Shown here: positions 1 through 63,300 of the stretch, one piece after another | How the letters are laid out: each line of letters begins with the position of its first letter | Numbering within the stretch: the first letter of the stretch is position 1 | Assembly (NCBI RefSeq): GCF_030532965.1 | Contig: NZ_JAUNKC010000010.1 | Location: 25,406 to 89,405, forward strand | Reading direction: 5' to 3' | DNA from: Corynebacterium sp. | GTDB taxonomy: Bacteria > Actinomycetota > Actinomycetes > Mycobacteriales > Mycobacteriaceae | DNA length: 64,000 bases | Notes under the pieces: model-generated | Told to the model about the DNA's origin: nothing | Databases searched by the model: none | What the model saw: the letters and a program-made list of their open reading frames with translations, nothing else | Position numbers and translations under genes: made by a program

Positions 1-2431
1 TCTGATCCGAAACCCATGACTGGTCTGCCAAATCTGGGGATGTATCCGCCACAATAGCCACCACGTTTTGTGCTGCCTTGACCGCCTTATTCCTTCCCTT
101 CCGCTTCGCCAACTGGCGCACATGAGGCACAAGCCCCGCCGCCGCAGGCGCTCGACCATCACGAATAGCGGCTGCCACACTCGGGGCAAGAGTTTCCATC
201 ACCACCGCCACCTCAGCTGTTCCAGCCACCAAACTGGTGTCCTGAATACAGGCACCGATGAGATCGTCAAGAATGGGCCACACTACCGATAACATCCCGG
301 CGTGGGCGGCGTCGTCAAGCACTAACGCAAGGGACTTCAGATTCCCAAGCTTGCTACACCAATCCAGAAACGCAATGTCGGCCACACCCGGGCGGATCAA
401 GCCACGCTGCCACGCATTGCTCAGCGCCACGCTAAATTCTGCACTTGCGTTTTTGGTGGGGCGTTGCACAGCAAACAAATTCACGACCGCCGCTGGTGGC
501 AGGGGTTTTCCGTGGCGTGCGACTTGCATGATCCCCGCCGCATCCTCGGGGTCCTTCTTGGGTGACCACCGCAGATTCAGAAACGCGGCATTGCCGAAGT
601 GCGGAAACACACAGTAATAATCCGTCTTATCCCAATTATTCAACTGCAGGCGCATCGGCAACCCCGCAAGCGACTCAGGCAACGCAAACGCCTTAATCAC
701 CATCTCCCCAGCAACAAGCTTATGCCCAGGCTCACGCACCGGATCTGTAAGATACTCCCGCGCAATCTGGGTGGCGCTCCGCCCAAAAACCGTACCGTCC
801 TCCAGCACAACAGAAACATCCAACGCCGCCAGCTGCCCGGCCGTACTCGCCGTAATGCTTGTAGGATTGAGCCGCGCAAGCGCCAGCTGCAAATCCGCCT
901 CCAACACCGACGCACCCGCTTTGTGATACCAAGTTAAACGCTCAACCAGGTCATCCGCGGTGATCGACAAATCCACGAAAGACGGCTCCGACAACAAACA
1001 CGGCAGCTGCCCCAACCTAGGCAACAACTGCCTTAGCCGCGCCGGGAAAATTTCCTTCGAATAAGTGATGATCGTGTACCGCTTTCGTTGCGGTCGCACC
1101 GCCCATTCCGCAAATAAGCCGCCCGCGATCTGGGTTGCGCCTTTCAATGCGCGCTGAGCTGCCTTAACATCAGTGCGGGCAAGCTCGTTGGCGAGCGCGA
1201 GAAACCGCTCTATGTGGATGTCTGAAACGTCGAGGTACTTGTCGCGCTTTTGAGCAACAAGTTTCTGTGCAACCTCCGCGAGCTTTTCGACGCTGGCGAC
1301 GCCGCGTTCAAATCGGGGTAGCTCCCAGAGCCTAGGTGCGTCCTCCCACGCGTAGGTGATGAGGCTGGCATCTTCACGTTCGGTGGCATCAAGACCCCAG
1401 TGATGGATGAGGGCGGTGGCCTGTTTCGCGGTTGTCGTGTCACGGCCATGGGCAAGTTCGTCGAGGCGGGGGAGCAAAACTTCCTGTGTCTCGGGATGCG
1501 GCTGTGGCCGATCATGGAGTGCTTTTAGTACGGCCAGGGTTGCCTTTTTCGTTTTTGCGTAGAGCGCGGGGAGAGCTACGTCGGAAAGCTGGGCGTCCTC
1601 AACACAAGGGATGAGCCGCAGGGCAAACTGTTCCACCATGACGGCTTCACCTGTAGAGATAAAACCGCAAAGAAGATCAGTGTGGCACAAAAGCTCTGTT
1701 GTCGTGACCTTTATTTCCTCGAAAAGAACGAGGGTTTCGTCTTTTCGAATACCAGGTGAGCCAGCTTTATCGATGCTGCGAAGTGCAGTGCTGACAGCGG
1801 TTGCACGATCAATCCAACCTGCGTCAAGCAGCAGCGCAGCTAAGTAAGTGAAGTCATCAGGGCACAAATCCAGTGCCTCGGAGAAAATTGTGGTGAATGT
1901 GGATTCAAATAGTTCGACGGGGAGTGGATTGATACCGTTATCTAATGCTCGTCTCAGTTCCCGCGCCCAGGTGCCGTAAAAGATTTCGGTCTTGGGATGA
2001 TCGAGTCCCATCCGCAGAACAACTTCTAGGGCGGCTTCGTCCATAAACACGTTGTTGCCACGGTTTCGGGTGAATACTTCGGTCACAAAATCTCCGGCGA
2101 ATTTTTCGCCACGTTCTTGAATAATTGCGGCTTTAAGCTCGTGCAGTTCTGACGGAAGAACTTCGATTGCGCGTTTCACACCAACCCCAATTCGGGTGGC
2201 GAATAGCGCCAACAAAGCGGAATTGACATCAATGGCAGAAATCCAGCCCCATCTGCCTGAGTCAGTAGTGCCGTAACCATCCCAATCCCCAGTGCGCAGC
2301 CCCTTGAGCGCGATCTTTTGCTGCTCCGGGGTGCCCAGCGGAAGGGTCATTACCTCATCGAAGCTGGCCGTGTTCCAGCCGAGTTTTTTGAAGATGTCGA
2401 TAGCTTGCTCTAGATCTGGATTGACTTTCAT
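1..2431 (-). CDS. P1: large three-module paralogue, 3' end outside window (partial)
   Basis: The minus-strand frame is open from an ATG at 2431 to the left edge without a stop, so at least 810 codons are visible. The N-terminus (MKVNPDLEQAIDIFKKLGW) matches P2-P4. Module A is followed by the junction motif LWELPRFERG and by module B with LPCLLSEPSFVDLSI near residue 480. The frame continues past the usual end of module B (KGRNKAVKAAQNVVAIV), as in P2, so a module C probably lies beyond the edge. P1 starts 21 bp after the P2 stop and is probably the last visible gene of the P4-P3-P2-P1 operon. From memory the modules resemble the actinobacterial DUF6493/DUF7824/DUF7825 proteins, whose function is unknown. 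Alpha-helical repeats are inferred from the helix-rich, leucine/alanine-rich sequence. Confidence 0.85.
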   Translation of the reverse strand, partial: MKVNPDLEQAIDIFKKLGWNTASFDEVMTLPLGTPEQQKIALKGLRTGDWDGYGTTDSGRWGWISAIDVNSALLALFATRIGVGVKRAIEVLPSELHELKAAIIQERGEKFAGDFVTEVFTRNRGNNVFMDEAALEVVLRMGLDHPKTEIFYGTWARELRRALDNGINPLPVELFESTFTTIFSEALDLCPDDFTYLAALLLDAGWIDRATAVSTALRSIDKAGSPGIRKDETLVLFEEIKVTTTELLCHTDLLCGFISTGEAVMVEQFALRLIPCVEDAQLSDVALPALYAKTKKATLAVLKALHDRPQPHPETQEVLLPRLDELAHGRDTTTAKQATALIHHWGLDATEREDASLITYAWEDAPRLWELPRFERGVASVEKLAEVAQKLVAQKRDKYLDVSDIHIERFLALANELARTDVKAAQRALKGATQIAGGLFAEWAVRPQRKRYTIITYSKEIFPARLRQLLPRLGQLPCLLSEPSFVDLSITADDLVERLTWYHKAGASVLEADLQLALARLNPTSITASTAGQLAALDVSVVLEDGTVFGRSATQIAREYLTDPVREPGHKLVAGEMVIKAFALPESLAGLPMRLQLNNWDKTDYYCVFPHFGNAAFLNLRWSPKKDPEDAAGIMQVARHGKPLPPAAVVNLFAVQRPTKNASAEFSVALSNAWQRGLIRPGVADIAFLDWCSKLGNLKSLALVLDDAAHAGMLSVVWPILDDLIGACIQDTSLVAGTAEVAVVMETLAPSVAAAIRDGRAPAAAGLVPHVRQLAKRKGRNKAVKAAQNVVAIVADTSPDLADQSWVSDQ

Positions 2432-5674: not shown

Positions 5675-5721
5675 GATGTTTTTTTGTCCTTTTTGAGTGT
5701 GCTTTTAGGGGGAGGAAATTT

Positions 5722-8151
5722 TTAAGTACTGGCGGGCAGAATCCCGATGGCGCTTTTCGCTGCGGTGACCGCCTTGTTCTTACCCTTACGTGCAGCCAGC
5801 GCCCGCAAGTGCGGCACACGAGCTGTTTCCTGGGGCGCACGACCAGCCACAATGGCAGCGGCAACACTGGGGGTAAGAGTTTCCATCACGAGTGCCACCT
5901 CTGCGGTTCCTGCCACCAAACTGGATTCCTGCAATGAGACGCCGATGAGATCATCAAGGATGGGCCACACGACCGATAACATGCCTGAGTGGGCGGCGTC
6001 GTCAAGCGCTAAAGCAAGAGCTTTCAGATGCCCAAGCTTTTCACCCCAATCGAGGAACGCAACGTCGGCAACGTCTGGCCTGATCAGGCCGCGCTGCCAC
6101 GCCTGTGCAAGCGCGGTGACGAACTCGCCGCCAGCGTTTTTGATGGGCCGCTGCGTGCCGAAAAAGTTGATGGCAGCGGCGGGCGGGAGCGGCGCACCGC
6201 GACGTGCCGCCTGCACAATACCCGGCAAATCCTCAGGGGAAACGAACGTCGACCATGCAAGATCCAGGAACGCGGCGTCGCCGAAGTGCGGAAACACACA
6301 AAAATAGTGGGTGGAATCCCACGCCTTCAACGAGTTTGTGGGATCCGGCCTGCCCAACCAAAAACGGCGCGGCAGCCCCGCCAAAGAATCTGGGGTGGGG
6401 TGGGGCTGCAATTCAACCGTGCCCGACACACATTTCAACAGCGGCTCCCTAAGCGGATCAGTCAGGTAATCCTTCGCGATCTGTGTCGCGCTGCGGCGGA
6501 ACAACGCACCACTTGCCAGCTCAAGGGGCACATCGAGCACGTCAAGCTGGGCGCCGGTATCGGGAGTGATGGTGTCAAGGTTGAGCCGCGCCAATGCGAG
6601 CTGCAGGTCCGCCTCCAGCGCCGCAACACCTGCATCTTCATATGCTTTCAGGCGTTTCACGAGGTCATCGGCGGTGATCGACAAATCCACGAAAGAAGGC
6701 TCAGAAAGCAGGCAGGGAATCTTACCCAGCCGCGAAACAAGCTGATCACACCGCGCGGGGATAACCGTCCGCCGCTGCGAATTAGTCAAATACCTCACTT
6801 CGCTAGGGTCATCCGCCCATTGCGCGAACACACCATCAATAATCCCGGTTGTCCCTTTCAAGGCGCGCCGAGCAGCATCAATGTCGGTGCGTGCGAGTTC
6901 GTTGGCGAGCGCGAAAAACCGCTCCACATCAACGTCTGCTAGGCGCTGATGTTCTTCGCGTTTGTGAGCAACAAGCTGCTGCGCAGCCTGGCTCAGCTTT
7001 TCGACGCTGGCAGCGCCACGCTCAAATCGGGGCAGCTCCCAGATCTCAGGTGTATCCTCCCACGTGCAGGTGGGGGTGCCTAGTGGGGGTTCGGTGGCCG
7101 CAACACCCCAATTACCGATGAGTGCGGTGGCCTGTTTTGCGGTTGTGGCGTCGCGGCTGTGGGCGAGTTCTTCTAGGCGTGGCAGGAGGATTTCTTGCGT
7201 CTCAGGGGAGGGTTGGGGCCGATCGTGGAGGGCTTTCAGTACTGATAGTTTGGTCTTTTTCGTTTTTGTGTAGAGCGCGGGTAGAGCTACATCGGCAAGC
7301 TGTGCGTCTTCCACGCAGGGGATGAGACGTAGAGCAAACTGCTCCACCATGGCGGTTTCACCTGTGGCGATGAAACCACAAAGATGCTCGACGTGGTTGA
7401 GAAGTTCCGCACTAGTTGTGCCAAGTTCGCTGAAGAGGATCAGGGTTTCAGCTTTTCTTTCGCTTGGTGTTTTCGCTTGTTCAAGGCCTCGTAGCGCCAT
7501 GGTGATGGCGGTTGCTCGATCGATCCACTCAACCTGACACAAGTTTGCGGCGAGTAATGGAAGGGAGACGAATTCGTTGGAGATATGCTCGAGTGCCTTC
7601 GGGAAAATGGTGGCGAATGTGGGCTCGAACATGTGAAGGGGAATGGATTTATCAAGGTTACTGAGTGCATTACTCAGCCCTCGTATCCATGCGGTGTAGA
7701 AAGATTTGGAAGTGGGGTGGTTAAGTCCCATATGCAGGATCACTTCGAGGGCAGAGTCGTGCATCAATATGTTGTTTCCACGATTTGATGCGAACACCTT
7801 TGCCACGAATTCTTCGGCGAACTTAAGGCCACGTTCTTGAATAATCGTGGCTTTGAGTCGTTGATTTTCCCACGGAAGGACCTCGACGGCGCGTTTTACA
7901 TTAACCCCAATACGAGTGGCGAAAATTCCCAGCATCTCCTCATCAACATCGATTGCGTAAACCCAACGTGACTTGCCAGAATCGGTTTCCTCGTACGCCG
8001 ACCAATCCCCAGTGCGCAATCCCTTGAGTGCGATCTTCTGTTGCTCCGGCGTGCCCAACGGCAGGGTGGGGGCTTCGCTGATCTCGGCTTTGTCCCAGCC
8101 GAGTTCTTTAAAAATCGCGACGGCTTCGTCTAGGTGAGGGTTGAGTTTCAT
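5722..8151 (-). CDS. P3: A-B paralogue lacking module C, 809 aa
   Basis: It has module A, the LWELPRFERG junction and module B with PCLLSEPSFVDLSITADD near residue 480, then stops just after RKGKNKAVTAAKSAIGIL, where P2 continues into module C. I chose the ATG at 8151 (MKLNPHL) because it aligns with P1, P2 and P4 and has AAAGAGAAA upstream; a frame-extending start at 8181 would overlap the end of P4. Several segments, including the first 40 codons and the stretch around the LSEPSF motif, are almost identical to P2 at DNA level, while intervening parts differ. That points to recent duplication or gene conversion. Function unknown. Confidence 0.85.
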   Translation of the reverse strand: MKLNPHLDEAVAIFKELGWDKAEISEAPTLPLGTPEQQKIALKGLRTGDWSAYEETDSGKSRWVYAIDVDEEMLGIFATRIGVNVKRAVEVLPWENQRLKATIIQERGLKFAEEFVAKVFASNRGNNILMHDSALEVILHMGLNHPTSKSFYTAWIRGLSNALSNLDKSIPLHMFEPTFATIFPKALEHISNEFVSLPLLAANLCQVEWIDRATAITMALRGLEQAKTPSERKAETLILFSELGTTSAELLNHVEHLCGFIATGETAMVEQFALRLIPCVEDAQLADVALPALYTKTKKTKLSVLKALHDRPQPSPETQEILLPRLEELAHSRDATTAKQATALIGNWGVAATEPPLGTPTCTWEDTPEIWELPRFERGAASVEKLSQAAQQLVAHKREEHQRLADVDVERFFALANELARTDIDAARRALKGTTGIIDGVFAQWADDPSEVRYLTNSQRRTVIPARCDQLVSRLGKIPCLLSEPSFVDLSITADDLVKRLKAYEDAGVAALEADLQLALARLNLDTITPDTGAQLDVLDVPLELASGALFRRSATQIAKDYLTDPLREPLLKCVSGTVELQPHPTPDSLAGLPRRFWLGRPDPTNSLKAWDSTHYFCVFPHFGDAAFLDLAWSTFVSPEDLPGIVQAARRGAPLPPAAAINFFGTQRPIKNAGGEFVTALAQAWQRGLIRPDVADVAFLDWGEKLGHLKALALALDDAAHSGMLSVVWPILDDLIGVSLQESSLVAGTAEVALVMETLTPSVAAAIVAGRAPQETARVPHLRALAARKGKNKAVTAAKSAIGILPAST

Positions 8152-8170: not shown

Positions 8171-10573
8171 TCACAGGCCAAGGGTTTTCAGTGCGTTTCT
8201 GGCGGCGGTGATTGCTTTGTCTTTTTCCGGTCGTTTTGCAAGCGTATGGAGGTTTGGTAGGTCGAAGGAGTTGTGGGGTGCTGTTTTGTCGGCAACAGCT
8301 TTTTTCACTGTGGGTGCGAGGCGTTCGATGAGGTTGACGATCTGTGTGGTTCCTGGCAGGAGTTGGTCTTGGTTGAGGGAGAATCCGATGAGGGCGTCAA
8401 GCAGTGGCCACACTACCGATAACATGCCGTCGTGGGCGGCGTCGTCAAGCACAACAGCAAGCTCTTTTAAGCGTCCAAAACCGAACGTGAAATGAACGTT
8501 AGGGTCGGCAACACCGGGGTGAAGAAGCCCGCGCTGCCATATTGTGTTCAGTAGGGTGCGGGTTTCGGCAGAACCACCCATGCTTGGGCGCTGGCAGTCG
8601 AACACGAGCATGGCACCGTGTGGCGTGAGTGGTTTCCCGTGGTGAGCCATCTGATGTAGGTCAACAGTAAGATCAGTGACTGGGTGCTCACATATTAAAC
8701 GAAACTGCAATTGCCACAACTCTGGGTCTTGGTCTTCATCGGGTTCGCGGAAGTCTTTCGCAAGGTCTGCAATGTAAGACGTCCAGTAACTAAAATTTTC
8801 GCCCCAATTGGGGTCGGAAGAAATATCAACAGTCAGGTATTCCTTCACCACCTGCGCAACGGTGTATTCAGCGGGGATTCTTTCCACATGTCTGAGCGCA
8901 ACATCTAATTGCTCAATTTGCGTGATAGCGGCTTCGGTGAAAGTGTCGGGGTTCAACCTTGTGAGGGCGAAGAGCAGGTCGTTTTCCAGCACGGGAGTCC
9001 CAGTGTCGCGGTATTTTTGCAGGCGCGCGATAAAGTCGCAGGCGGTGATCGAAAGGTCCACAAAGGACGGCTCCGATAGAAGGCACGGCAGTTCGCCGAG
9101 TGCCGCAAACAGTTCAGAAACTCGCCGCTCAATGAGCTCTGCCAAGTAGTTGGTGGTGATCCGCAGGTGAGGGTTCGGGCCAAGCGCCCAGATCTGGCAG
9201 ATGCGGTTAAAAATGGGAGTTTTACTAAGCAGTGCTTTCGCGGCGTCAGGGTCGGTGCGGGCAAGGTCGTTGGCTAATGCAAGGAAGCGCTCTAATTCGA
9301 GGTCGAAAGCGCTCAGGCGGTTGCGTTCGCGTTTTTCCAACGTTTGCACCGCGTGTGTGAGCTTTTCGACGCTGGCAACACCGCGCTCAAATCGGGGTAG
9401 CTCCCAGAGTTCTGGTGGGTTAATCCAGGCGTAGCTGCGCTGACACTGTTGGACTTCTGGGACAGGTTGGTTCCAGTGTTTGAGCAGTTTGGTGGCCTTT
9501 TTGATCGTTGTGTGGTGCTCAGTGGAAAGAAGCTTTTCGATGTGGGGTATTAAGATGCTAATGATGTCCTGGTCAGGGGCGGGCAGCGTGATGAGTCGGT
9601 TGAGAACAGCAACGGTGGTTTTCGCTGTGCGGCAATTAAGTGCGGGCAGCACAATATCGACGAAGTTCTGGCCACTAACATGAGGCATAAGCGGTAATGC
9701 GAAACGGGAAACCATGGCGGGATCACCGGTGGCAATCAGCTCTTCTACCTTATTGATGTGGGGGAGGAGATCATCAACGCTCAAGCCAAGTTCTAAGAAC
9801 AACAGCCGTGCCAACCTTCCCCTTTCCCACAGTGTGTGTGCCCCCGCAATACAAGACAGGGCATAGGAAACAGTGTTGTGGCGATCCATCCAGCCGTGGT
9901 GGTACGCGCCAACAATGGCGAGACACAGAGCCATCGAGGGATAACGAGCCGCTTCCTGCACACATGCGATAAACGTTGGCTGTAAAAGCTGTGCGGGGGC
10001 GGCATGTTCCTCCACATCAAACCACGCATGCCACACGTGCTGTGGCTCCCATACTTTTAAAGCGCGGAAAGAACCGAGGACTATCTGAGCCCAAAAAATA
10101 TAAAATGCCTTGTTTCGCGGTATTTCTAAATCCATGTGCAGCGCAACCTGAACTGCAATCCAGTGAAACCCAAAGAAACCACCCCCAAGCGGGCCATCTG
10201 TGAGAGTGGCAGCGCAGACGAAATCTGCGGCGAAAGCTTCACCGCGCTGCGCAATAACCGCAATGGCTTCTTTGACCTCTTCTTCAGCGTCCCCAGGAAG
10301 AACCTCCAGCGCCCGACGGGCGTTAACACCCAGACGTGTGGCGAACAGCCCCAGCATCTTGGTATTCACGTCCACTGCCGAAATCCAGCGCCAACCCTCA
10401 CCCTCTACCAATACATCTTCGCCCCAATCCCCGGTAGCTAATCCTGTGCGTGCGATCTTCTGCTGCTCCGGGGTGCCCAACGGCAGGGTGGAGGCTTCGC
10501 TCAGTTCGGCTTTATCCCAGCCGAGTTTTTTAAAAATCGCGACGGCTTCGTGCAGGTGGGGATTGAGGTTCAT
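8171..10573 (-). CDS. P4: A-B paralogue lacking module C, 800 aa
   Basis: Same architecture as P3: module A, LWELPRFERG junction, module B with PCLLSEPSFVDLSI near residue 496, then a stop after KRPEKDKAITAARNALKTL. The ATG at 10573 (MNLNPHLHEAVAIFKKLGW) fits the family. The longer reading from a TTG at 10621 has no better ribosome site. Its start region is nearly identical to P2 and P3, but the rest is more divergent, with a longer module A (cysteine and tryptophan-rich stretch around residues 150-200). P3 begins 19 bp after its stop, so the two are probably co-transcribed. Function unknown. Confidence 0.84.
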   Translation of the reverse strand: MNLNPHLHEAVAIFKKLGWDKAELSEASTLPLGTPEQQKIARTGLATGDWGEDVLVEGEGWRWISAVDVNTKMLGLFATRLGVNARRALEVLPGDAEEEVKEAIAVIAQRGEAFAADFVCAATLTDGPLGGGFFGFHWIAVQVALHMDLEIPRNKAFYIFWAQIVLGSFRALKVWEPQHVWHAWFDVEEHAAPAQLLQPTFIACVQEAARYPSMALCLAIVGAYHHGWMDRHNTVSYALSCIAGAHTLWERGRLARLLFLELGLSVDDLLPHINKVEELIATGDPAMVSRFALPLMPHVSGQNFVDIVLPALNCRTAKTTVAVLNRLITLPAPDQDIISILIPHIEKLLSTEHHTTIKKATKLLKHWNQPVPEVQQCQRSYAWINPPELWELPRFERGVASVEKLTHAVQTLEKRERNRLSAFDLELERFLALANDLARTDPDAAKALLSKTPIFNRICQIWALGPNPHLRITTNYLAELIERRVSELFAALGELPCLLSEPSFVDLSITACDFIARLQKYRDTGTPVLENDLLFALTRLNPDTFTEAAITQIEQLDVALRHVERIPAEYTVAQVVKEYLTVDISSDPNWGENFSYWTSYIADLAKDFREPDEDQDPELWQLQFRLICEHPVTDLTVDLHQMAHHGKPLTPHGAMLVFDCQRPSMGGSAETRTLLNTIWQRGLLHPGVADPNVHFTFGFGRLKELAVVLDDAAHDGMLSVVWPLLDALIGFSLNQDQLLPGTTQIVNLIERLAPTVKKAVADKTAPHNSFDLPNLHTLAKRPEKDKAITAARNALKTLGL

Positions 10574-11761: not shown

Positions 11762-14242
11762 TCACAGAAGTTCTGGGGGGATTAGGGCGAGAATTTTCTG
11801 TGCGGCCTTGGTGGTCTTATTGGATTTCGGTAGGTTCGCATAGTGGTGCACGCTGGGAAGCTTCAGCTGATCCGCGTCAGCGTCACCACTTTCAACAGCA
11901 TGAATAACAGAAGGTGCGAGTGCGAGAATCGCCTCCGCAATATCTGATGTGCCCGCAGGCGGTTTCGGTGCCTGAATTGTCCACTTGAGCAACGGGTCAA
12001 GAACCGGCCACACCAGTGATAACAAACCCTCATGGGCTAACTGCTCAAGAGTCTTTCCAAGGCCTACAAGCTTCGTCGGAGTAACCGCCCATTCCACCAA
12101 GGTCGCATCCGCAATCCCGGGGATTAGCAGGCCACGGTCCCAGGCGTCGAAAAGCGCGGCCGCTGTTTTCTCGTGCACAGGCAGCGGGCCGGGTTGTTGG
12201 AGTGCGAGGAGATTCATCACAAACCCCGCCCCAAGCGGTTTTCTAGACCTAGCAAGCTGAGTCACATCGCACGCAACCTCCTCAGCCGCATATTTGCTTT
12301 TCCCAATGTAGGAGCGGGTTATGTGGGGCGTGGGTGCGACAGTCCAGCGGGGAAACACCCCGACAGGAATGCCATTTTCTGAAGTGTATGTGCGGATAAG
12401 CCGGTTCGGTAGATACGCAATCGATTCCGGGTACACCGGCTGATCAGGTGCGAAAGTCTCGCAATTCACCGCCCAATGCCGAAAGTTAGTCGCAACCAGC
12501 GGTGGTTCGGGGAGAGGGTCGCGGATATAGGCAGCAACGATTTCGCCAGCCGTCTCGTCTAAAACATGGGTGCGCAGCATACGAACGGGAACATTACAGT
12601 CCAACGCAGCTTCGGGGTCGGCGGTATCAAGGTTGAGGCGAAACAGCGCCAACTGCAAATCCGGTTCCATCACCTCAACGCCAGCCGCCTGATAGTGGGA
12701 AAGACGGTGCATGAGGTCTGCAAAATCGATCGAAAGATCCTCATAGGTGGGTTCGGATAAAAGCACAGGAATACTGCCTAACCGATCCGCAATCGCCACG
12801 GCGCGCGCCTGCAGCAGCCCGAGCCGCCGCCCCTTACCCTGTAGTATTTCTTCCCCGCGTGCCCAACGCTGAAACTCAACGCACTTGCTTGTCGACGCCG
12901 CCCGCCGCGCCACCGCCACATCTTCGTTGGCGAGTGCCACCAGCAACGCATCACGTTTTTCGGAATGAATATCGACCCGCAACGGGGTGAGTTGGCGCTC
13001 CGCATCGACGAAAGCATCCAACGTAGCAGGGCCTTTATCAAACTTCGGGCAGTCCCACAGCGGCGGGGCTGGGTGCCACGGAAGAACCTCAGCGACATCC
13101 TGTGAAACTTGGGGGTCGAGATTCCAGTGTTCTAGGAGCTTCACAGCAAGCTTGGCCACCGCGGTATTCCGGGATTGGGCAAGCTCTCGGATTCGAGGCT
13201 CAAGCGTAGCGATCGTGTCCGCTGTAGGTACCGGTTTATCCAACAGGGCTTTAAGAGCCTCGCGCTGGCCGGTGGCGGTGGTCAGGTACAGGGGGCCGGT
13301 GGCGGCGTCGACAAGCTTAGGCTCAGGGGCAAGCGCTATGATTTTTGGGCCGAAAGCGGCGCAATAAACAGGGTCGCTGGTAGCCAAAGCCGCGCTGAAC
13401 ACGTCGAGGTGGGCGAGCATTTCCGTGTCCGTGACGGCGAGATCAGTGACAAGATACTCCACCATACGACGCCGCTGCGCTGGTCGCTGTGGGGATTCTA
13501 TCTGTTGCATAAACACTGTGAGCACCTCTTCGCGGGGAAGAAGTCTCATAATAGCCCCAGCAACCAAGACTTTACCGAAGCTGCCAAGAACGGAAAGGTT
13601 CGCGGCAATGCCCTTATCCACATGCTCACGGAAAGTAGGCGCAAACGTATGAAAACTAATGTCCTCATCCATGTGCCACGGCTTGGACATCCAAGCGGTT
13701 TCAGTAGGATCCACGTGTTCAGGAAGAAGCGAAACAATAAACGTGGACCAATCCTGAATATAGCCCGCGACTGACGGTACCGGCACAGAAAAACCGCCGT
13801 TACCAGCAACGAGCCGAATGCACGTGGAGTAGTGGTCGAAACTGACATAGAAGTCGTCCGGTCGGGGCACGCGGGTGCCATAGACCGCCTTAATGAACTG
13901 TGTGGCAAATTTTTCACCCCGCCCAGCAATAAGGGGGAATCGTATCGGGGCGGGATAACTGCGCACATACCGATTCAGCAACGATAACGCCCGCGGTGCT
14001 GGCACACCCATGCGGATCGCAAACAACGCCAATTTCTGCAAGTTCACCCCGGCGTGGTTGCAGGGGCGACGCAGCTTCGCATCAAAGGTTTCCCACGTGC
14101 CCGATTTCAAACCAGCAACCGCAATCGCACGCTGCTCACTCGTGCCAGTGGGCAGCGCCATCAAGTTCTGCCTCGATACGTCGTTCCAGCCCAACTCGCG
14201 GAAAACCTCGACGGCGGCCTGAAGCTTGGGATTAACAGCCAT
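11762..14242 (-). CDS. P5: A-B paralogue, second subfamily, 826 aa
   Basis: Begins MAVNPKLQAAVEVFRELGW and shares its variant motifs with P6 rather than with P1-P4: junction PPLWDCPKFDKGPAT and module B motif IPVLLSEPTYEDLSIDF near residue 492. It ends just after LPKSNKTTKAAQKILALIP, so module C is absent. The ATG at 14242 has AGAGGAGA upstream at good spacing. P6 ends 45 bp upstream, so P6-P5 probably form one transcript. The gene contains three copies of the dispersed 13-mer (12143, 12887, 13314). Function unknown; helical-repeat scaffold inferred. Confidence 0.85.
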   Translation of the reverse strand: MAVNPKLQAAVEVFRELGWNDVSRQNLMALPTGTSEQRAIAVAGLKSGTWETFDAKLRRPCNHAGVNLQKLALFAIRMGVPAPRALSLLNRYVRSYPAPIRFPLIAGRGEKFATQFIKAVYGTRVPRPDDFYVSFDHYSTCIRLVAGNGGFSVPVPSVAGYIQDWSTFIVSLLPEHVDPTETAWMSKPWHMDEDISFHTFAPTFREHVDKGIAANLSVLGSFGKVLVAGAIMRLLPREEVLTVFMQQIESPQRPAQRRRMVEYLVTDLAVTDTEMLAHLDVFSAALATSDPVYCAAFGPKIIALAPEPKLVDAATGPLYLTTATGQREALKALLDKPVPTADTIATLEPRIRELAQSRNTAVAKLAVKLLEHWNLDPQVSQDVAEVLPWHPAPPLWDCPKFDKGPATLDAFVDAERQLTPLRVDIHSEKRDALLVALANEDVAVARRAASTSKCVEFQRWARGEEILQGKGRRLGLLQARAVAIADRLGSIPVLLSEPTYEDLSIDFADLMHRLSHYQAAGVEVMEPDLQLALFRLNLDTADPEAALDCNVPVRMLRTHVLDETAGEIVAAYIRDPLPEPPLVATNFRHWAVNCETFAPDQPVYPESIAYLPNRLIRTYTSENGIPVGVFPRWTVAPTPHITRSYIGKSKYAAEEVACDVTQLARSRKPLGAGFVMNLLALQQPGPLPVHEKTAAALFDAWDRGLLIPGIADATLVEWAVTPTKLVGLGKTLEQLAHEGLLSLVWPVLDPLLKWTIQAPKPPAGTSDIAEAILALAPSVIHAVESGDADADQLKLPSVHHYANLPKSNKTTKAAQKILALIPPELL

Positions 14243-18754: not shown

Positions 18755-18767
18755 GCTTGTCGACGCC
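18755..18767 (+). repeat. Dispersed 13-mer GCTTGTCGACGCC, intergenic copy
   Basis: Exact copy of the GCTTNTCGACGCC motif between ftsY and the next gene, outside any coding frame. See the finding on the dispersed motif for all positions. Confidence 0.7.
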
Positions 18768-46200: not shown

Positions 46201-46602
46201 CAGAGCTACTAAACTACGGTGGTGCCCTGTGCCATTGGCAAACGTTAATACGATGATCGAATAGGTGGCTTTGGGGCGAAGATACTCTGAAATTACTGCT
46301 CCGGTGGCATCGTCTTCACGGGATCGCCACGCACCCCGAATGTAGGAAACTAAATCACGGCCCCGTCCTCGTTTGGCCTCATGCTGGGCTGCTGCGTTAA
46401 ATCGCACTCGATCGGAAGGGATTAAAACCGCAGAGATGGCGTCGATAAGCGTGGATTTTCCTGAGCCGGAACCACCGGTAATTAAAAATCCTTCACGGGA
46501 AACTGGAACGTCTAACACGCCATCAAAGGTGCCCCAGTTCACTAATTGGATTCGCGATAATCGCCATTGGCCTGGGTGAATTGCTGCTTCTTTATCGCTC
46601 AT
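43237..46602 (-). CDS. jetC: Wadjet SMC-like ATPase JetC (MksB)
   Basis: SMC-type ATPase of 1121 aa that extrudes DNA loops and recognises circular plasmids. Walker [17 protein letters not shown] lies at residues 41-56. Long coiled coils flank a hinge near 470-560 ([20 protein letters not shown]). The ABC signature [12 protein letters not shown] is near 1004 and Walker [15 protein letters not shown] near 1035. All catalytic motifs are present, suggesting a functional system. It overlaps jetB by 11 bases. A 13-mer copy (46438) covers codons for TLIDAI next to the P-loop. Confidence 0.94.
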
Positions 46603-47470: not shown

Positions 47471-48927
47471 TGAATTTCGGGTAGTTTATTAAAACGCCAC
47501 CCTGTAATGGTAGCGGACATTTCTATTTCACTATCGACCCAGGTGATATTTTCTAATGTATCTGTACTTTCCCCGGTCGTCATGGCAAGATAAAGCAACC
47601 CCACGACAGAAGCCAATCCTTGTTTCGCTGGATTATCTTTGAGCACCTCAGCAATGGTGGCGCTACCACGCCGTTTAACTGATGCAGCTACTGCGGTTTC
47701 TAACTCGGCAAAATCAATTTCAGATGCTCTTACAGATTCCAATAGCATTTCAGTGTTGATTTCCGCAGCGGCAATGGTTGTTGGTTCGTTTTCCACAAAC
47801 TCTTCACCCGGGTTCTTTAATTTCAGTGAATCGATAGAAGCAATGTTCATACCAATTTTTGTTAGTGGGGTGGATAGTTGATGCAGCGGGCCTAAGTTAG
47901 CCCGCTCGACCGCCCGGCTGGCTAATGCCCGGGTATGCCTGAGCAATGCGATCATGCGGCGGCTTTCGGCGAAATCTTGGGTGGTGACGTAATGGCGTAA
48001 TGAGCGCGCTAAACTTGTCATCACCGTATTGACCTCATATCCTGAGGTTTCCATGTCTCGAAATAATCGTCGGAGGCGTTCTTTAAATTCAAGTTCAATA
48101 GGCTTGGTATTTTCTCTTTCCAAAATGCTATCGAGGCAGGCGTCAATGTGTGCTGATTGTTCGCGGTCTAACAAAATATTGTAGAAACCATGAAAGCTTC
48201 GGCCAGCTTCGGAATCTGCTATTACATCGACTCCGGAGAAAATATCCTCAAGCACGTCACCACGATTTTCTTCCGGTTCTAATAACTGTCGACGTAGCCT
48301 TCGATTTAATTGCTCGAATTCTCCTCGCACTCGCGCAAAATCCGCAGGAACCGTCGCCGCCAAGTCTAGAATGTCAATGATCCGTTCCCGAATATCAGCG
48401 GTATTTAGCACATGAAAATCTCCTTTGTGAGTTGCTTCTATCAATTTATCTAAATGCGCTCGTTGTTTTTCCAACTGTTCCAACCGCGTGCTGGCATCTG
48501 GGTCGGAATCACGTGCGAGGTTTTCTAAAGCCTGGGCGATTGCTTGGATTCGGGATGCGGTTACCGCAGATCTGGGTTGATCCCACCGTTGAACTGCATC
48601 TAATGCGATTAGCGAGTTTTCGCTAGGTTCTACCGTTTCACCAGTGCGAGAGGTGCCCGGTTTGCGAACTAACCACTCAGCTTTTACCCAATCATTAACA
48701 TAGGCTTGTGCGTTTTTTGGGAGCTCGAAGTCTTCGCTTCTTAATAGGCGCAAGTCGGCGTCGAAAAGCTCGTAAATATCAGCGACAGGTCGCGCACCTG
48801 CACCATGTGGAAAATGTTCGGCGATGAAACCAAGCACAACCGGCATTAACGGGCTGCGTAGCAACGCAATGACTGGAGATTCTTTAGCTAAACGACGATT
48901 AGTTAAGGCTTGTGCCACAATACTCAT
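47467..48927 (-). CDS. jetA: Wadjet kleisin subunit JetA (MksF)
   Basis: DUF3375-type kleisin of about 486 aa that bridges the JetC heads. The N-terminal winged helix is followed by the conserved [20 protein letters not shown], then [36 protein letters not shown] and [16 protein letters not shown]. The frame opens at 49038, but the ATG at 48927 ([12 protein letters not shown]) fits the family start and avoids overlap with tex. First gene of the jetABCD operon; the promoter must lie in the 84-bp gap shared with the divergent tex. Confidence 0.9.
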
Positions 48928-51348: not shown

Positions 51349-51360
51349 GCGTCGACAAGC
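51349..51360 (-). repeat. Dispersed motif copy after tex (12 of 13 bases)
   Basis: GCGTCGACAAGC, the reverse complement of GCTTGTCGACGC, begins directly at the tex stop codon in non-coding DNA. Confidence 0.6.
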
Positions 51361-52883: not shown

Positions 52884-53948
52884 ATGAACCCAGCACACCT
52901 GACCGAACCTGAATACAGCTTACTTTCGCAACCAGAACGGGAAACTCTACTTGCCGAAATAGCCACAGAAACCAAGGCGGCATCATTCCAATATGCCACC
53001 TTCAACCGGTTCGGACGCGGTATTTCCACCGCAATCTTCGACATTGAAGGCTCGGAATTCGTATTCGTACCCGGCGCCACCATCACCTTAGGATGGGACG
53101 GATTTAACTCAGAACCACAACCAGACATGTGGCTTGATCTCGCCGAAGGCTTCGAAGACGGCACCGACGATGAAATACTAGACACCGCCTTTTCGCCTGA
53201 GTTTCGCAACCAACTAACTCAAACCTTTCGGGCAAACACGACACCCAAACAGGAATGCACTATTCCACCGATGCTCGTGGAACGCACGGCTCAAAATCCC
53301 TGCTGGCATGAAGTTGCACTCGACACCCTACTGCCGGACTCGCACGCCCACGAGCTCATTCGCGCCGGGGAGGCCGACAACGTGCTTGCCGTAACGGCGT
53401 ACCAAAACATGCGGGTTTCGCGAACCGACCTGCAGGTATCGTGGCGGGTAGAGCTTTTCGACGCCCCCACATTCGCGCAGCTCAACGCCACCCTGGAGGC
53501 GTCGGGTTTCTCACTGCCGACCATGCGGGAATGGGAATATCTCGCCGGTGGCGGCTGTGCCACCTTAGCGCCGTGGGGCGATAGCATTGACGTCGATTCG
53601 ATCATGGCAACCAGCGCAACCAACCCCAATGACCGGCCACGCGAAACCGACGCGGCGGTCAAAGGTGTGCTTTCCGAACCTAACTTCTTCGGCCTTACCA
53701 TCGCCTTCGATCCCTACCACCCTGAGCTCGTACACCAAGACGATAGCTTCACGCTCAAAGGCGGCGATGGCGGCAACGCACTGTGCGGTGGCGCGGGTAT
53801 TGCCTGGGGATTTTTCCCGGTGACACCGTACTTCATGGATTACCTCTCGGACACCCCGCCCGATCCTGACCAAGCGCTTGTTGGGGATGAGCACTACCGC
53901 CGGGTCAAACCGCTTGCTGTCGGGTGCATAAAATTTCGCGGACAGTAG
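52884..53948 (+). CDS. SUMF1 / FGE-sulfatase-fold protein without catalytic cysteines, 354 aa
   Basis: The C-terminal half has the pattern of the formylglycine-generating-enzyme fold: GFSLPTMREWEYLAGGG, APWGDSIDVDSI, NFFGLTIAFDPYHPEL, DDSFTLKGGDGGNALCGGAG and a final GCIKFRG in place of the usual GFR. The redox cysteine pair of true FGE is not seen in its normal spacing. This suggests a binding domain, not an enzyme. A TATAGT element inside the palindrome CACTATAGTG (52823-52832) is a possible -10. Partner unknown. Confidence 0.75.
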   Translation: MNPAHLTEPEYSLLSQPERETLLAEIATETKAASFQYATFNRFGRGISTAIFDIEGSEFVFVPGATITLGWDGFNSEPQPDMWLDLAEGFEDGTDDEILDTAFSPEFRNQLTQTFRANTTPKQECTIPPMLVERTAQNPCWHEVALDTLLPDSHAHELIRAGEADNVLAVTAYQNMRVSRTDLQVSWRVELFDAPTFAQLNATLEASGFSLPTMREWEYLAGGGCATLAPWGDSIDVDSIMATSATNPNDRPRETDAAVKGVLSEPNFFGLTIAFDPYHPELVHQDDSFTLKGGDGGNALCGGAGIAWGFFPVTPYFMDYLSDTPPDPDQALVGDEHYRRVKPLAVGCIKFRGQ

Positions 53949-55229: not shown

Positions 55230-55234
55230 CGGGG

Positions 55235-56242: not shown

Positions 56243-56952
56243 CCGAGAAATCTCAAGGTATCCGCAACATTGCGGCTAAGCTGCGCGTAAGACTCGAACG
56301 TAAGGGAAGGGGCACCTGGAATGGTGCGTAGATGCTGGTTGGCGGCGTCGATAAGCGAAGAAAGCTCAGGGAGCGTGGGGAAATCGAAAAACGAAAAAGA
56401 CTCAGCATACAAAGGCGCACGCAGGTGGGCAGGGACACCGCTTTCCACCAAAAGTTTGGTCACATCCTCGGTATTTCGCCGATCCGACAACCCCGCATGA
56501 AGCCGACAAAGCGCATCATAGTCGCAGGTAACGGAATCATCGAACGAATCAATAACTCGCACCGTCGAACATACAACAGGCGTGGAATCCTTCATCCGCG
56601 CGGGAAACCCCAGCTCCTGGAAAGCGGGCTGTGTCCACCACCGTTCATCACAGGACCCCAACGAACCTGCCCCCACAAAGAGTGAATCACACGAACCCAG
56701 CTTGGATATCGCCACATCCTCAACCTCAACCGCGCACGCTGGCGAGCCGTCGGCGAAAAAGAACACAAACCGACGATCTTTCGGGGGCAATTCCCGAAAC
56801 TCCCGCACCTGCATGAGTGGAAGCGTGCGCGATCGTGGCGCCGCAATGACCAGCGACTGATTCCCGCGAATCTCGTTCAGCAGCCCATCGTGCTCCTTGG
56901 CCGTGCGAACCTGCGGATTGTGATGGATCAAGCCAAGTTGTTCAAATTCCAT
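56173..56952 (-). CDS. Unknown protein, 259 aa
   Basis: Not recognised. I start it at the ATG at 56952 (MEFEQLGLIHHNPQVRTAKE); an in-frame start at 57057 would extend into the divergent promoter area. Soluble-looking body (FREELPP-type segment REFRELPPKDRRFVFFFADG, DYDALCRLHAGLSDRRNTED). The last 25 residues (LGWNLVWVFLPVFLAPILG) become suddenly hydrophobic exactly where the next gene overlaps in another frame. That suggests the natural reading may shift frame there. Divergent from P7a. Confidence 0.65.
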   Translation of the reverse strand: MEFEQLGLIHHNPQVRTAKEHDGLLNEIRGNQSLVIAAPRSRTLPLMQVREFRELPPKDRRFVFFFADGSPACAVEVEDVAISKLGSCDSLFVGAGSLGSCDERWWTQPAFQELGFPARMKDSTPVVCSTVRVIDSFDDSVTCDYDALCRLHAGLSDRRNTEDVTKLLVESGVPAHLRAPLYAESFSFFDFPTLPELSSLIDAANQHLRTIPGAPSLTFESYAQLSRNVADTLRFLGWNLVWVFLPVFLAPILGKGFLN

Positions 56953-57242: not shown

Positions 57243-59210
57243 ATGCTTGAGCCGACTGTGAAGGAAGCGGTCAAGGTTTTCCGGGAATTGGGGTGGGTTG
57301 ACCAGCCCTTATCCGCCGCCCCCATCCTCGACTGCGGTGACGAGAACCAACGCGAACTCGTAGTAAAAGCACTGGAAGCGACCCCCATTGAGCGTCATCC
57401 CGGCGGGGTGCAGGCGGGGAAGTCGGTGTACCCGATCGATGTGGCAATGTTTTCCCTCTTCGCAATACGAATGGGTGTTTCTGCGCGATGTGCGGTGGCG
57501 TTGCCCTTGTCCAGCAACTGGGCAATCGTGGCGGGGTGCATAGCAGAACGTGGCCCAAAATTTGCGGAAGATTTTTTAGAGCACCTGCCGCAATTCGACC
57601 CAACTGACAGTAGTTGGTTCCATACGGGGCATCTAAGCCACAGCGTGCCGGTGTGGCTGCATGTGGTACACACTGAGTTGGGGCTTCCAATTCCGCGGGA
57701 CCACGTTTTCCTGCAACACTGGGCCATTGCTGCCGCGCGAATATTTGTGGGAAAACTCCCGGAGGGCATTGAGACTTTCTATGGTGAGGTGGATGAGTTG
57801 CCCACCCAAAAAGATTTTCTCGCCAGCGCCACTCACTTCGTCGGCCCAGCCGTTGAAGCGGGTGTGCCCGTTAATGGGGCGTTGGGGCTTTTGTTTCCCG
57901 TGTTAGTGGCGGAAGGAAAGCTTTCCCGCCCGGTGGCGATCGGGTGGGTTGTGGCTGCCGCAGTGTCGGCGGTGCGTCCGAAAGAACGAAAATTCTGCAT
58001 TGATCTGCTGCTGAACCAGCTCGGTGCAACGGATGAAGAGTTAGCTGCTCATTGTGTGGCGCTATCGATGCTGGTCACGGCCGATTCTCACGCGGTGAGT
58101 ACGGTCGGTATTCGCCTGTTGCGTGCGGTTGATGCGTCTTCGCTTGTCGACGTCGCCATCGGTGCGTTGTCCGCCACGACGAAAACAGCCCAACGGGCAG
58201 TCCTAGAAGTGCTTGGATCCCGCACGGATCTGCCGGATTCTTGCGTGGCGGCGCTTCTTCCACAGGTGAGTGAGCTTGCTCGCTCGCAGGACTTACGGGT
58301 GAAGTCACGAGCGAACAAGGTTCTTCGGCTTTGGGGCTGTGATCTGTCAATTGATAACACGCCAGCTAAAACTCCTTCCACACGGAAAACGATAGAAATC
58401 GATACCGATACGTATGAAGAACCGATGAGCGATGAAGAGTTTGCTCAGGTGTGGCAACCACCCAAGTTGAAAATGAAGCAGCTTAAACCTGTTCTGGATG
58501 GTATGAGGATTGAGCTGCGGCTCGAGGATACCTTCGGTGTTGAAGATATTGCCGTGGTGATGACGTTGCCCGACCAGTCTGCAACTTTGCTGAAACCAGC
58601 TTCTGGGTATCCGGCACCACATACGCCACTGGCCTGGCAATGCCAGGTGCTTGATGCGCCACTGACCGCAGGGGGAACGAGAGTTCAGATGTATCCCAAG
58701 TGGCGGGCTGGCGAGTGGGTGTTGGAGAAAAGCACTGTCCCGATGGACGAATCTGTGCTGCCGGTGACAATCCTGTCGCTCGCATTTGCACAACTGTGCA
58801 CGAAGGAAAGCTTCGAATTTGTCAGTCGCCCGTTGCAAACCTACCTGGACATGACCCTCGTCAGCCCGAAAGCCGTGGTGGCAAGTATGAAACAACTACT
58901 TGCATGCGAGTTTTTCAACCCTGGAAGGGCGGCTCGGTTCATTGCGGAGAACCCAACTTGTATCGCCACGTTGTGGCCAGTTGTGACGGAATCGCTGGCG
59001 TGGGCAGCACAGCAACCCACCCTGCCGCGTTGGGTCAATGATGTGCTCAAAGTTGCGCTCGCCCAGGTGAAAGTTTTATCGGCAGCGACACGACGCGGGG
59101 AAATTCCACCTCAGCAGTGGGAACCACTCGGGGTTCTTGCAGCCCATAGTGGCAAAAGCGTTGCGTTGAGTCACGCCCGTGAGCTTCACTCGAAGCTTTC
59201 GATTAAGTAG
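57243..59210 (+). CDS. P7a: A-C paralogue without module B, 655 aa
   Basis: Module A (MLEPTVKEAVKVFRELGW, ending near residue 380 with LRVKSRANKVLRLWGC) is joined directly to a module C. Module C begins near 394 (MSDEEFAQVWQPPKLKMKQL) and shows TLWPVVTESLAWAAQQ and PRWVNDVLKVALAQV near the end. Module B is missing but is encoded as a separate gene 15 bp downstream (P7b). The ATG at 57243 agrees with the family N-terminus; in-frame starts at 57231 and 57192 exist, and the GGAGGG at 57225-57230 lies too close to 57231. Function unknown. Confidence 0.83.
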   Translation: MLEPTVKEAVKVFRELGWVDQPLSAAPILDCGDENQRELVVKALEATPIERHPGGVQAGKSVYPIDVAMFSLFAIRMGVSARCAVALPLSSNWAIVAGCIAERGPKFAEDFLEHLPQFDPTDSSWFHTGHLSHSVPVWLHVVHTELGLPIPRDHVFLQHWAIAAARIFVGKLPEGIETFYGEVDELPTQKDFLASATHFVGPAVEAGVPVNGALGLLFPVLVAEGKLSRPVAIGWVVAAAVSAVRPKERKFCIDLLLNQLGATDEELAAHCVALSMLVTADSHAVSTVGIRLLRAVDASSLVDVAIGALSATTKTAQRAVLEVLGSRTDLPDSCVAALLPQVSELARSQDLRVKSRANKVLRLWGCDLSIDNTPAKTPSTRKTIEIDTDTYEEPMSDEEFAQVWQPPKLKMKQLKPVLDGMRIELRLEDTFGVEDIAVVMTLPDQSATLLKPASGYPAPHTPLAWQCQVLDAPLTAGGTRVQMYPKWRAGEWVLEKSTVPMDESVLPVTILSLAFAQLCTKESFEFVSRPLQTYLDMTLVSPKAVVASMKQLLACEFFNPGRAARFIAENPTCIATLWPVVTESLAWAAQQPTLPRWVNDVLKVALAQVKVLSAATRRGEIPPQQWEPLGVLAAHSGKSVALSHARELHSKLSIK

Positions 59211-60326: not shown

Positions 60327-63300
60327 TCAAGTTGGGGTTGACGGTGCTTGACAATTTTCTTCGCCAAAATGGTGATCGCGTCTGAGGCTTGGGAGGTGGC
60401 GACCAATGCCACAGACTCCCAAAAACTATCGTCGACCAGCCCCTCATCAGTGGCTTTGCTTAGTTCCTTCACATACTTCATGGCTGAGCCGAGGGCTTTC
60501 TTTAGCCACGAGGGGGCAGCGGAACCGGCTTGTATGAGCTGTGCCGCGTGAGCGATGGACTCTGTCACGATCGGCCACAGATAGGGCAGAAACTCGGCAT
60601 TGACCGACACAAGCGTAAATAACCGATGCGGGTTGAACTCCTTCCGGGGAAGTAGCCGTCGCATGACCTGGGATATATCCCCACTTGAAACTTCGTTTCT
60701 GGAAAGTTCGTGCAGGAGAAACTCGGTCACATCGTCGGCGTCGTCGTGTGTGGCGAACACAAGTATTGCCGTGAGCACCACGTCGGTGATGGGGAACTGG
60801 CCACCACCAGGAGCTTGTCGACGCCTCGAAACCGCCCACGTACCATCACTGTGAAACAGTTGCCACGGTTCCTCCTGGAGGTAGCTGGGCTTTGGGTTCT
60901 CAGCGGTAGATACAAAAATTGTGTCGTTGAACCGAAAATCCGAAAAATCAGTGAGGCTGCGAATATACAGTTTTTCACCTTCGGGTGTTTCCACGGGGCT
61001 GACCAGCCACAGGTCTGCGGACCTCAGGTTCTTCCCATAACCGGAAGAAGCTACCGAGCGTGCCGCCACCGTGTGAAGCTTCGCGTGTGTATCTACCAGT
61101 CGGGAACAGGCCGTCGCCTGCTTCCACTTCCTTGTAGTCACAGTTTCGGCAGGAGCTGGTTTGAACTCGTCCGCTTGGTGTGGGGAATCATCATGAGCTG
61201 GGGATTCGGGCAACGCCGCCACAATGGCTTTTGCGGCCCGAACCGTCTTCGACCCGCCTTTCTTTGCGGCAAAGGCACGCGCCCCAGGAACTAGGGCTGC
61301 CCATTCGGGTGCTTTCTTTTCTTTCAGGGCTGCAGCCACGTATGGTGCTAGTTCGGCCATGGCTTCTGCAATGTCGGATGCGCCGGGAACGGGTTTCTCG
61401 ATGGGTGAAGCGCGGTAGAGTAGGGCGTCGAAAAGCGGCCAGATAATCGAGAGTAAACCGTCATAAGCGAGTTCGAGCAGGGGCTGCGCCAACCCCTTAA
61501 AGTGCGTGTCGCCGATCACCCAATCCAGGCGGTCGACATCAACCACACCAGGGTGCAGAAGACCTCGATCCCAGGCCTGACGGATCGACTCACCCACGGT
61601 GGAGAGAGTTTTGCGTGCCGTGGGTCGAACACAGCCCAGCAGGTTCACTGCAATCGCAGGGGTGAGCGGGTACTTACGGTGGGCAGCGTGCGCGGCGAGC
61701 ACATTTAGCCGCTGCTGGTCCGCCTGCCTAGTCCACGACATTTCCGTGTACGCAGCATCGTCCCACCGAGGATGAATGATCGCCATTTCACTCCACCGAT
61801 GCGGGGTGAGCTGCTGTTTATGTATCCCAAGGGTGAGGAAAGTCGGCGGCGTGGGGTGCTGCTTTGTCACCCACTGCGCACGCTTTTCCCCATTAGCCCA
61901 GCCCTGCCCAGTCTGAAGTGGAGGCTCAACCACCGGTGAGGCGAGGTATTCCACGATGACCACGCCCACGGACTTCTTCGACGTTTGATCGGCGGAGATC
62001 AGAATTGGGATGTCGCTGTACCTGCGGGCACTATCGGCTAACGTGTCCGTATTGCAACCGTCGAGGTCGAGGCGGTAAAGCGCCAACGCAAGATCGGGTG
62101 CGGCAACTGCCTGCCCCGTTTCTTGAAACAGATCGAGGCGGGCGAAAAAATCCTCGCGGGAAATGCTGCAATCCACAAAGGACGGTGTGGAAAGAACACA
62201 TGGGTACGAGCCCAAATTTTTAACGATCAGGTTGCCTCTTACCTCGGTGATGGCCGACCACGGATCTGTGGTTTCCCGCACCCCCTGCGGCGCAGGCGCA
62301 TCCTTTGCCCACTTAAGCAAAGAATCCAGCCAACCCCACGCCCAACTGCTGCTGCGGCAGGCGCGTTTCGCGGCACCCTCATCGCGAATCGCCAACTCAA
62401 CAACCTGGGCAAGTAACCGTTCAAGGGCATGCACGTCGTACATATCGCGTTCGACCAACGCCAAGTTGTGCGTGATCTGCTCCACAGTAGCTTCGGGAAC
62501 CTCAAATCTTTCCAGCTTCCACAACGGTGGGGTAGGCTGCCACAAGCTGGCTGTGGGTAGATCATCTGCCTCAGTTGGGGCGTCTGTGATTCCTGGATCT
62601 TGGGCAAGACCCCACACAGTCAGAACACCATTCGCCGCGCGAGCAACCTGCCGATCCTTGGCTCCAGCAAGCTCCACAATCCGTGGCTGAAGAACTTCGC
62701 AAACATCCAAGGTGGGTGTTGGGCGTTCCGCGAGCGCTTTGAGCACCATACGTTGCGCTTTCAGCACAGTCGAATACAACCCTGGTAAGGCGACATCGCA
62801 GAGGTTTTCGTCAGGAACTATCCCGATAAGTCGCACCCCAAAGTACTGGAGATAAGAGCCGTCACCGGCGGAAACTGCGCCCGCGAGACTGTTAGCATGC
62901 GCAAGAAGTTCCTCATCGGTGACTTCCAGCTCCTTACACATTTCCACCATGCGGCGTCGCGCACCTGTTCGGGTAGTCGATTCCACAGCATCCGCGACCC
63001 ACTTCACCGCAGTTGCACGAGTGATCATTTCGCGTCGAAGAGCTTCAGCCACCACGTGGCCGAGTGGCCCAGACATGGGGACCTGATTATTCACTGCCGC
63101 TTCGAGGTGCTCCAAGAAACGTGGTTCCAGGTCTTCCCAGGTCAAACGATTTTTAAGCTCGTCAAAGGACGAAACTGGATTCGTATAGGGCTTTTCAAAG
63201 AGCTTGACCACGTCAAGATTCATTACCGCCGAGGCGGCCATCGCCCACACGCGTAGATAGTTCACGTGCTCAGGCAGGGGAACGTCAAAGCCCCAGTCGC

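Follow-up and report, generated by a model that had tools for sequence, protein, structure and literature searches.

Why should a single 13-base word, GCTTNTCGACGCC, occur 17 times within 64 kb of Corynebacterium DNA, 8 times on the plus strand and 9 times on the minus strand, when dinucleotide shuffles of the same stretch contain a mean of 0.01 copies? The stretch in question (hereafter the window, meaning all of its 64 kb) belongs to a Corynebacterium sp. whose genome, labeled G000 here, comprises 3.21 Mb in 59 contigs. A prior sequence-only reading of the window, which had counted the same 17 exact copies, offered three options for the word, namely, a DNA-uptake-like word, a nucleoid-protein site, and a methylation target. 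The presence of distinct versions (dialects) of the word in different species, their clustering on a tree, and the conservation of sites at orthologous positions in one species pair favor the first of these, and we propose, with a probability that we put at roughly 0.75, that the word is a DNA uptake sequence (DUS), like that of Neisseria, of naturally transforming Corynebacterium.

A genome-wide word kept as DNA

The copies are neither confined to the window nor close in number to expectation. The whole genome contains 501 copies of the 13-mer, 245 forward and 256 reverse, compared to 3 copies of the reversed word used as a control. A scan without any prior, run under a third-order Markov model on 450 kb of G000 (the window plus 20 further stretches), returned parts of the word as the most over-represented 9- and 11-mers. 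Among 170 sites of G000 with at most one mismatch, positions 1 to 4 and 7 to 11 are fixed at 98 to 100%, position 5 is unconstrained apart from a preference for T and G, T occupies position 6 at 89% of the sites, and C occupies positions 12 and 13 at 79 and 84%, respectively; these frequencies are partly circular because the sites were picked by mismatch. The flanks of the same sites, which are unselected, are poor in information, with a maximum of 0.42 bit per column. Another 136 copies in G000 have a base other than T at position 6 (control, 8), and the wider word is therefore GCTTNNCGACGCC. The only feature that recalls a dispersed mobile element or repeat family is the high copy number; with flanks that are nearly information-free beyond the 13 bases (about 0.4 bit per column as the maximum in G000) and copies that lie in frame inside genes, the probability of such an origin is negligible.

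The earlier reading had placed the copies in several reading frames, which is true, yet one frame dominates, with 68 of the 127 coding sites in the 450 kb of G000. This dominance, the coding location of most copies, and the L-V/F/I-D-A peptide that the earlier reading had seen could mean that the excess simply follows from an L-x-D-A protein sequence, from codon usage, or from mutation bias. Shuffling of synonymous codons (100 shuffles per genome, on rough gene calls from a simple codon model) abolishes it, however. G000 genes carry the 11-base core of the word, GCTTNTCGACG, 74 times in the coding orientation and 53 times in the opposite one, against shuffled means of 1.9 and 2.1; in a second genome, G013, the values are 69 and 31 against 1.6 and 6.5. 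Similar tests of the other versions described below gave 10 plus 6 against 0.13 plus 0.70 (G001, T10 form), 8 plus 3 against 0.11 plus 0.04 (G004, T10 form), and 13 plus 10 against 0.18 plus 1.07 (the own word of G012). The earlier statement that the leucine codon is always CTT is inherent in the word and hence circular, but a separate, noncircular codon test agrees with the point that it was meant to make: among leucine codons preceding NTC-GAC-G, CTT makes up 74 of 87 in G000 and 67 of 93 in G013, compared to 18.8 and 8.2%, respectively, of leucine codons overall. Further, on the same rough calls, 55 of 182 cores in G000 are intergenic, above the expected 29.5, as are 22 in G012, where 15.0 are expected. 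The word is thus over-represented at the DNA level and kept as DNA, not as a peptide, just as the sequence-only reading had supposed, and a by-product origin is very unlikely.

Dialects of the word across Corynebacterium

The whole-genome and genus-wide counts that the earlier reading had suggested as a check revealed a large excess, with many related species having versions of their own. Over 242 Corynebacterium genomes, counts of the original 13-mer have a bimodal distribution, with at least 40 copies in 155 genomes (at least 100 in 124 of these) and 10 or fewer in 68. The form GCTTNNCGACGCC, here termed C10, reaches at least 60 copies in 162 of the 242 genomes, and counting GCTTNVCGACGCC brings in species that rarely have T at position 6. 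A second form, T10 (GCTTNNCGATGCC), occurs in 136 to 578 copies in 17 of the 242 genomes, taking at least 100 as the threshold, and none of these belongs to the C10-rich set. Each of the 17 has at most 41 copies of the C10 form, and the C10-rich genomes have at most 66 copies of the T10 form, with the higher values in the group around G106 (G000 has 3). G028, with 40 T10 copies, was left out of the dialect genomes. The alternative words were found by free k-mer scans of word-poor genomes and then counted genus-wide; one of them, the unrelated word ATGACGYCGCGG, has 312 copies in G012 (L096-L100) and at most 23 in any other of the 242 genomes.

De novo scans of stretches of word-poor genomes, 18 to 100 kb each, gave no clear word in G007, G011, G018, G019, G021, G029, G043, G081, G121, G132, G206, G216, G230, and G232 and weak TTNCCGACG-like words in G088 and G202. 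Such scans are insensitive: with 40 kb, they missed the T10 word of G032, of which the genome has 146 copies, and gave no more than a weak signal for that of G027 (228 copies). The label "no clear word" can therefore not be taken to mean that a word is absent. Among named loci of the trmD region, the word is found in 8 of the 20 loci L001-L020, including those of C. silvaticum, C. pollutisoli, and C. aurimucosum, and in none of L021-L080; in locus L002, from C. sp. HS2168-gen11, CTTGACGACG occurs five times in 20 kb. Beyond the genus, 185 genomes (1.9 to 8.8 Mb) from 30 other genera of the family have at most 25 copies of the word, with at most 11 of the reversed control. Two of these genera, g5 and g23, show a mild excess (20 to 25 copies in 4 to 7 Mb versus 2 to 4 of the control), which may reflect composition or a weak relative of the word.

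The dialects cluster along a phylogeny of the Ffh protein. This tree, built from 30 genomes and 8 named rows, represents one gene, leaves some forks open, and includes near-copies that favor clustering. All 11 sampled T10 genomes fall in one group (100/95), joined by C. aurimucosum and G106, both of the C10 form. The T10 label requires 3 changes, compared to a mean of 9.8 after shuffling (0 of 500 shuffles as low), and all labels together require 10, compared to 20.6 (0 of 200 as low, with the named rows given their own label). Four of the five sampled word-less genomes make up a near-basal clade within the genus (100/99), whereas the fifth, G029, lies outside it and groups with G012, G025, and G041 (92/91). 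C. glyciniphilum is basal, and the word is absent from its 17.6-kb locus; the genome of the window adjoins C. silvaticum (100/99). The G106 group (e.g., L181, L182, and L271-L273) bears the C10 word although G106 is nested beside T10 genomes; it is likely to represent a recent dialect switch and to be the best place to seek a receptor.

Conservation at orthologous positions, another check named by the earlier reading, was assessed in one close pair, G061 and G062, whose sequences share 97.9% identity across 89% of 200 kb. Every one of the 66 cores of G061 lies in DNA shared with G062, and 65 of the 66 are intact there, compared to fractions of 0.848 for control windows and 0.866 for words shuffled from the same letters. 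No core occurs in 22 kb of G061-only DNA, 10 kb of which had no prophage look as judged from its list of open reading frames (ORFs), and eight cores occur in 19 kb at the end of G062, a part that the comparison may not have reached. We regard the association of the word with the shared genome as suggestive only.

The proposed uptake function and its rivals

The distribution of the copies bears on whether the word might instead be the binding site of an intracellular chromosome protein, such as a nucleoid organizer or a segregation, replication, or recombination factor, with a specificity that differs by clade. Consistent with this, cores are found across the whole chromosome in G013 (114 in 20 stretches of 20 kb, 2 to 9 per stretch), contiguous stretches of G000 show a spacing slightly more regular than chance would give (coefficient of variation of 0.815 versus 0.972 in simulations, P = 0.0125; largest gap between cores, 9.9 kb), and sites are conserved at orthologous positions in the above pair. 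Chi sites and FtsK-orienting polar sequences (KOPS) display strong orientation along replichores. The cores of G013, the one chromosome in which replichores were assessed, display no such bias: judged by the sign of a weak local GC skew, the leading strand has 62 and the lagging strand 52, and three assumed termini give 61:53, 62:52, and 56:58. This speaks against a Chi- or KOPS-like use, in agreement with the sequence-only reading. Likewise, the cores of G013 show no regional concentration, many genomes have no clear word, and a wholesale change of word within one genus would be hard on an essential factor. On balance, we consider a chromosome protein unlikely to account for the word.

The HIP1 word of cyanobacteria raises the alternative of a methylation target or a product of methylation-linked repair, as has been proposed for HIP1 itself. 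As with the Corynebacterium word, HIP1 is abundant and iterated genome-wide, and other words take its place in some species (PMC4390886, in part). However, the HIP words described there are palindromes of about 8 to 10 bases tied to methyltransferases, whereas the Corynebacterium word has 11 to 13 bases and its core GCTTNTCGACG is nonpalindromic; further, among the matches listed, no paper was by its title concerned with a Corynebacterium methylome. A methylation-based origin is hence decidedly improbable.

The length of the word, its lack of a palindrome, its occurrence in both orientations, its orientation preference within genes, its dialects, and the presence of com and Flp/Tad genes are best accommodated by an uptake sequence. 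ComEC (PF03772) is found in 241 of the 242 genomes and the Flp pilin DUF4244 (PF14029) in 238, and both a TadA-type ATPase (PF00437) and DprA (PF02481) were detected in 43 of the 43 genomes tested. In G000, comEA and comEC are adjacent, and a seven-gene operon codes for TadZ, TadA, TadB, TadC, Flp, TadE, and a TadG-like protein (these names are partly our own). Matches to all seven Tad proteins were recovered in 19 of 20 Tad loci, the matches being weaker in the word-less basal species; the one locus without a TadE match at the threshold used is that of the word-less G007. The weakest DprA among the 43 (60 bits, at G029:C1:1842183-1842692; the others score at least 189) belongs to the word-less G029, a single case that would be compatible with competence having been lost first and the word afterward. 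The presence or absence of ComEC, TadA, the Flp pilin, or DprA was rejected as the cause of the difference between word-rich and word-poor genomes, as all are nearly universal.

On the basis of these observations, we envisage a surface receptor on or near the Flp/Tad pilus that would bind double-stranded DNA bearing the word and draw it inside, with ComEA and ComEC moving one strand across the membrane and DprA and RecA recombining it. RecA generally acts in the recombination of incoming DNA. If word-bearing fragments enter more often than others, recombination would preserve intact copies and spread new ones, a form of uptake-driven molecular drive by which the word might accumulate and be held at orthologous positions. 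A change in the specificity of the receptor would then cause the whole genome to drift toward a new dialect and might erect a partial mating barrier between clades.

Precedents exist for both the word and the machinery. Transformation in Neisseria and the Pasteurellaceae has been called unique in requiring such words (PMC3630211, in part). The DUS of the Neisseriaceae, according to the same part of that source, is similarly short, nonpalindromic, and of high copy number, with clade-specific dialects that follow the core phylogeny and some members lacking an obvious word. The Corynebacterium word differs from it in sequence, to which it is unrelated, in its occurrence in Actinobacteria, in having about 500 copies rather than thousands, in that inverted terminator pairs are not in excess in G000, and in the accompanying pilus genes, which are of the Tad/Flp type; no counterpart of the receptor ComP was found, although no search for it was made. 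The uptake signal sequence of the Pasteurellaceae is likewise abundant, with clade variants and with one orientation commoner in genes (PMC2346458, in part), as is also the case here (74:53 in G000 and 69:31 in G013); its sequence is again unrelated, and no bias toward gene ends is visible in Corynebacterium. In terms of machinery, Micrococcus luteus, from the same phylum, requires Flp pili for transformation and has comEA and comEC (PMC6370729), the same class of machinery as in Corynebacterium, and no uptake word is reported for it in the available part of that source. A Tad pilus has also been linked to DNA uptake in Liberibacter (PMC8513845, in part). In Veillonella, uptake words were looked for and none of at least 10 bases is reported in the available part of PMC5397411.

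Several observations weigh against an uptake sequence. At the thresholds used, 62 of the 242 genomes are without a clear word, some of them with 20 to 58 copies. Word-less species also possess Com and Tad genes, which have no predictive value for the word; the machinery consequently permits an uptake function without proving it. No receptor was found in a comparison by eye of Flp, TadE, and the TadG-like protein, which yielded no lasting dialect-linked change. In TadE, the word-less basal species differ from the conserved loop of the word-bearing species, and a two-residue insertion in this loop at first appeared in 5 of 5 T10 genomes (finally 7 of 7) and 0 of 8 C10 genomes. Of four further C10 genomes, three (G106, G222, and G182, close kin of the T10 group, but not G150) share this insertion, which therefore marks a clade and was rejected as the determinant of the dialect. 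As for the placement of copies, intergenic cores are below expectation in G013 (13 versus 24.1), G001 (6 versus 13.3), and G004 (2 versus 4.8), and inspection, without a formal test, showed no visible bias to gene ends in G000 and G013. Inverted pairs, defined by a distance of less than 80 bases, show no excess in G000 (5 versus 3.0 at random, P = 0.18; 4 under a slightly stricter distance) and are absent from G013 (0 versus 1.3), unlike in Neisseria. Finally, contrary to the association with shared DNA, two cores lie in about 1.9 kb of internal G062 DNA that is missing from G061.

The counts of inverted pairs in other genomes are mixed, with no excess in G004 (0 versus 0.65) or G061 (2 versus 1.0) and an excess in G012 (5 versus 0.9) and G001 (4 versus 1.0, P = 0.012). 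A role of such pairs as terminators was rejected for G000, where no such excess is seen.

Our searches, confined to an open-access library, turned up no earlier report of uptake sequences in Corynebacterium or another actinobacterium. For three Corynebacterium species, only CRISPR-related patterns are named in the available part of PMC5217627, and the 32-base Cod-2 family of C. diphtheriae, with 43 copies and marked G (PMC2267715, in part), may overlap the Corynebacterium word. We think it reasonably probable that the Corynebacterium word represents a third, independently evolved DUS system and the first in Gram-positives. In such a system, the genomic self-mark would be read by a Tad/Flp pilus instead of by ComP and a type IV pilus, and changes of dialect across a genus of more than 240 species would act as mating barriers. 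If so, most Corynebacterium species would be naturally transformable, now or recently, sorting DNA by a written mark, and adding the word to donor DNA would offer a ready route to genetic tools for harmless species. Gene flow between species would also be predictable from their dialects, and the question of whether drive or selection for self-DNA gives rise to uptake words could be studied in a second system, independent of Neisseria and Haemophilus.

Copies and neighboring genes within the window

Of the start coordinates that the earlier reading gave for the 17 exact copies, 13 stand and four were 10 too high (13314, 17451, 22426, and 39829 are corrected to 13304, 17441, 22416, and 39819). 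The variable base in these copies is G in 8, T in 6, A in 3, and C in none. The 11 additional sites of the earlier list are real, and since all 11 have the exact core GCTTNTCGACG, the window contains 28 cores. Four one-mismatch sites, at 308, 5995, 8438, and 49386, were missing from that list. Three of these, at 308, 5995, and 8438 (minus strand), are copies of the position-6 variant GCTTGACGACGCC, and those at 5995 and 8438 are inside DUF7824-type genes.

In the first third of the window, core copies at 1282..1292, 6996..7006, and 9361..9371, all on the plus strand, are followed by exact words in gene 11762-14242, namely, GCTTTTCGACGCC at 12143..12155 (minus) and GCTTGTCGACGCC at 12887..12899 (plus) and 13304..13316 (minus). 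GCTTGTCGACGCC recurs at 15785..15797 (minus) in gene 14288-16810, at 17441..17453 (minus) in an SRP54-type GTPase gene (17072-18715, ftsY-like by its domain content), and at 18755..18767 (plus) in intergenic DNA. Gene 18832-19602 contains GCTTTTCGACGCC at 19441..19453 (plus), a core is present at 20140..20150 (minus), and gene 22062-22709 contains GCTTATCGACGCC at 22416..22428 (plus). The cores at 24777..24787 (plus) and 24867..24877 (minus) make up an inverted pair. Two exact words, GCTTGTCGACGCC at 30916..30928 (plus) and GCTTTTCGACGCC at 31273..31285 (minus), are intergenic and precede an ffh-like gene. A trmD-like gene is followed by gene 39532-39945, with GCTTGTCGACGCC at 39819..39831 (plus), and cores occur at 40111..40121 (minus, intergenic) and 41896..41906 (minus).

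A Wadjet-like defense locus on the minus strand (42108-49038) codes for JetD_C, an SbcC-like ATPase, DUF4194, and DUF3375. It contains a core at 45250..45260 (plus), GCTTATCGACGCC at 46438..46450 (minus) in the SbcC-like gene (43237-46602), and GCTTTTCGACGCC at 48757..48769 (minus) in the DUF3375 gene (47467-49038); with these three core copies, the word is therefore also present in an accessory locus. Further along the window are a core at 51350..51360 (minus), just after gene 48985-51348, GCTTTTCGACGCC at 53453..53465 (plus) in gene 52884-53948, and GCTTATCGACGCC at 56344..56356 (minus), which is intergenic according to the gene caller but is covered by an ORF at 56173-57057 (minus). Another core is at 58142..58152 (plus), and gene 60323-63748 contains GCTTGTCGACGCC at 60813..60825 (plus) and GCTTTTCGACGCC at 61424..61436 (minus).

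Six large genes of the window, within 2453-16810 and 60323-63748, match DUF7824, four of them above the family cutoff and two (8171-10621 and 60323-63748) below it; one of the six adjoins a RecG-C/HATPase-like gene (10713-11645). Between the ftsY- and ffh-like genes, the region 22706-30906 codes for an EccC-like FtsK/SpoIIIE ATPase, an EccD-like protein, and a ParA-like protein, and these genes are of the type VII secretion type, as we name it.

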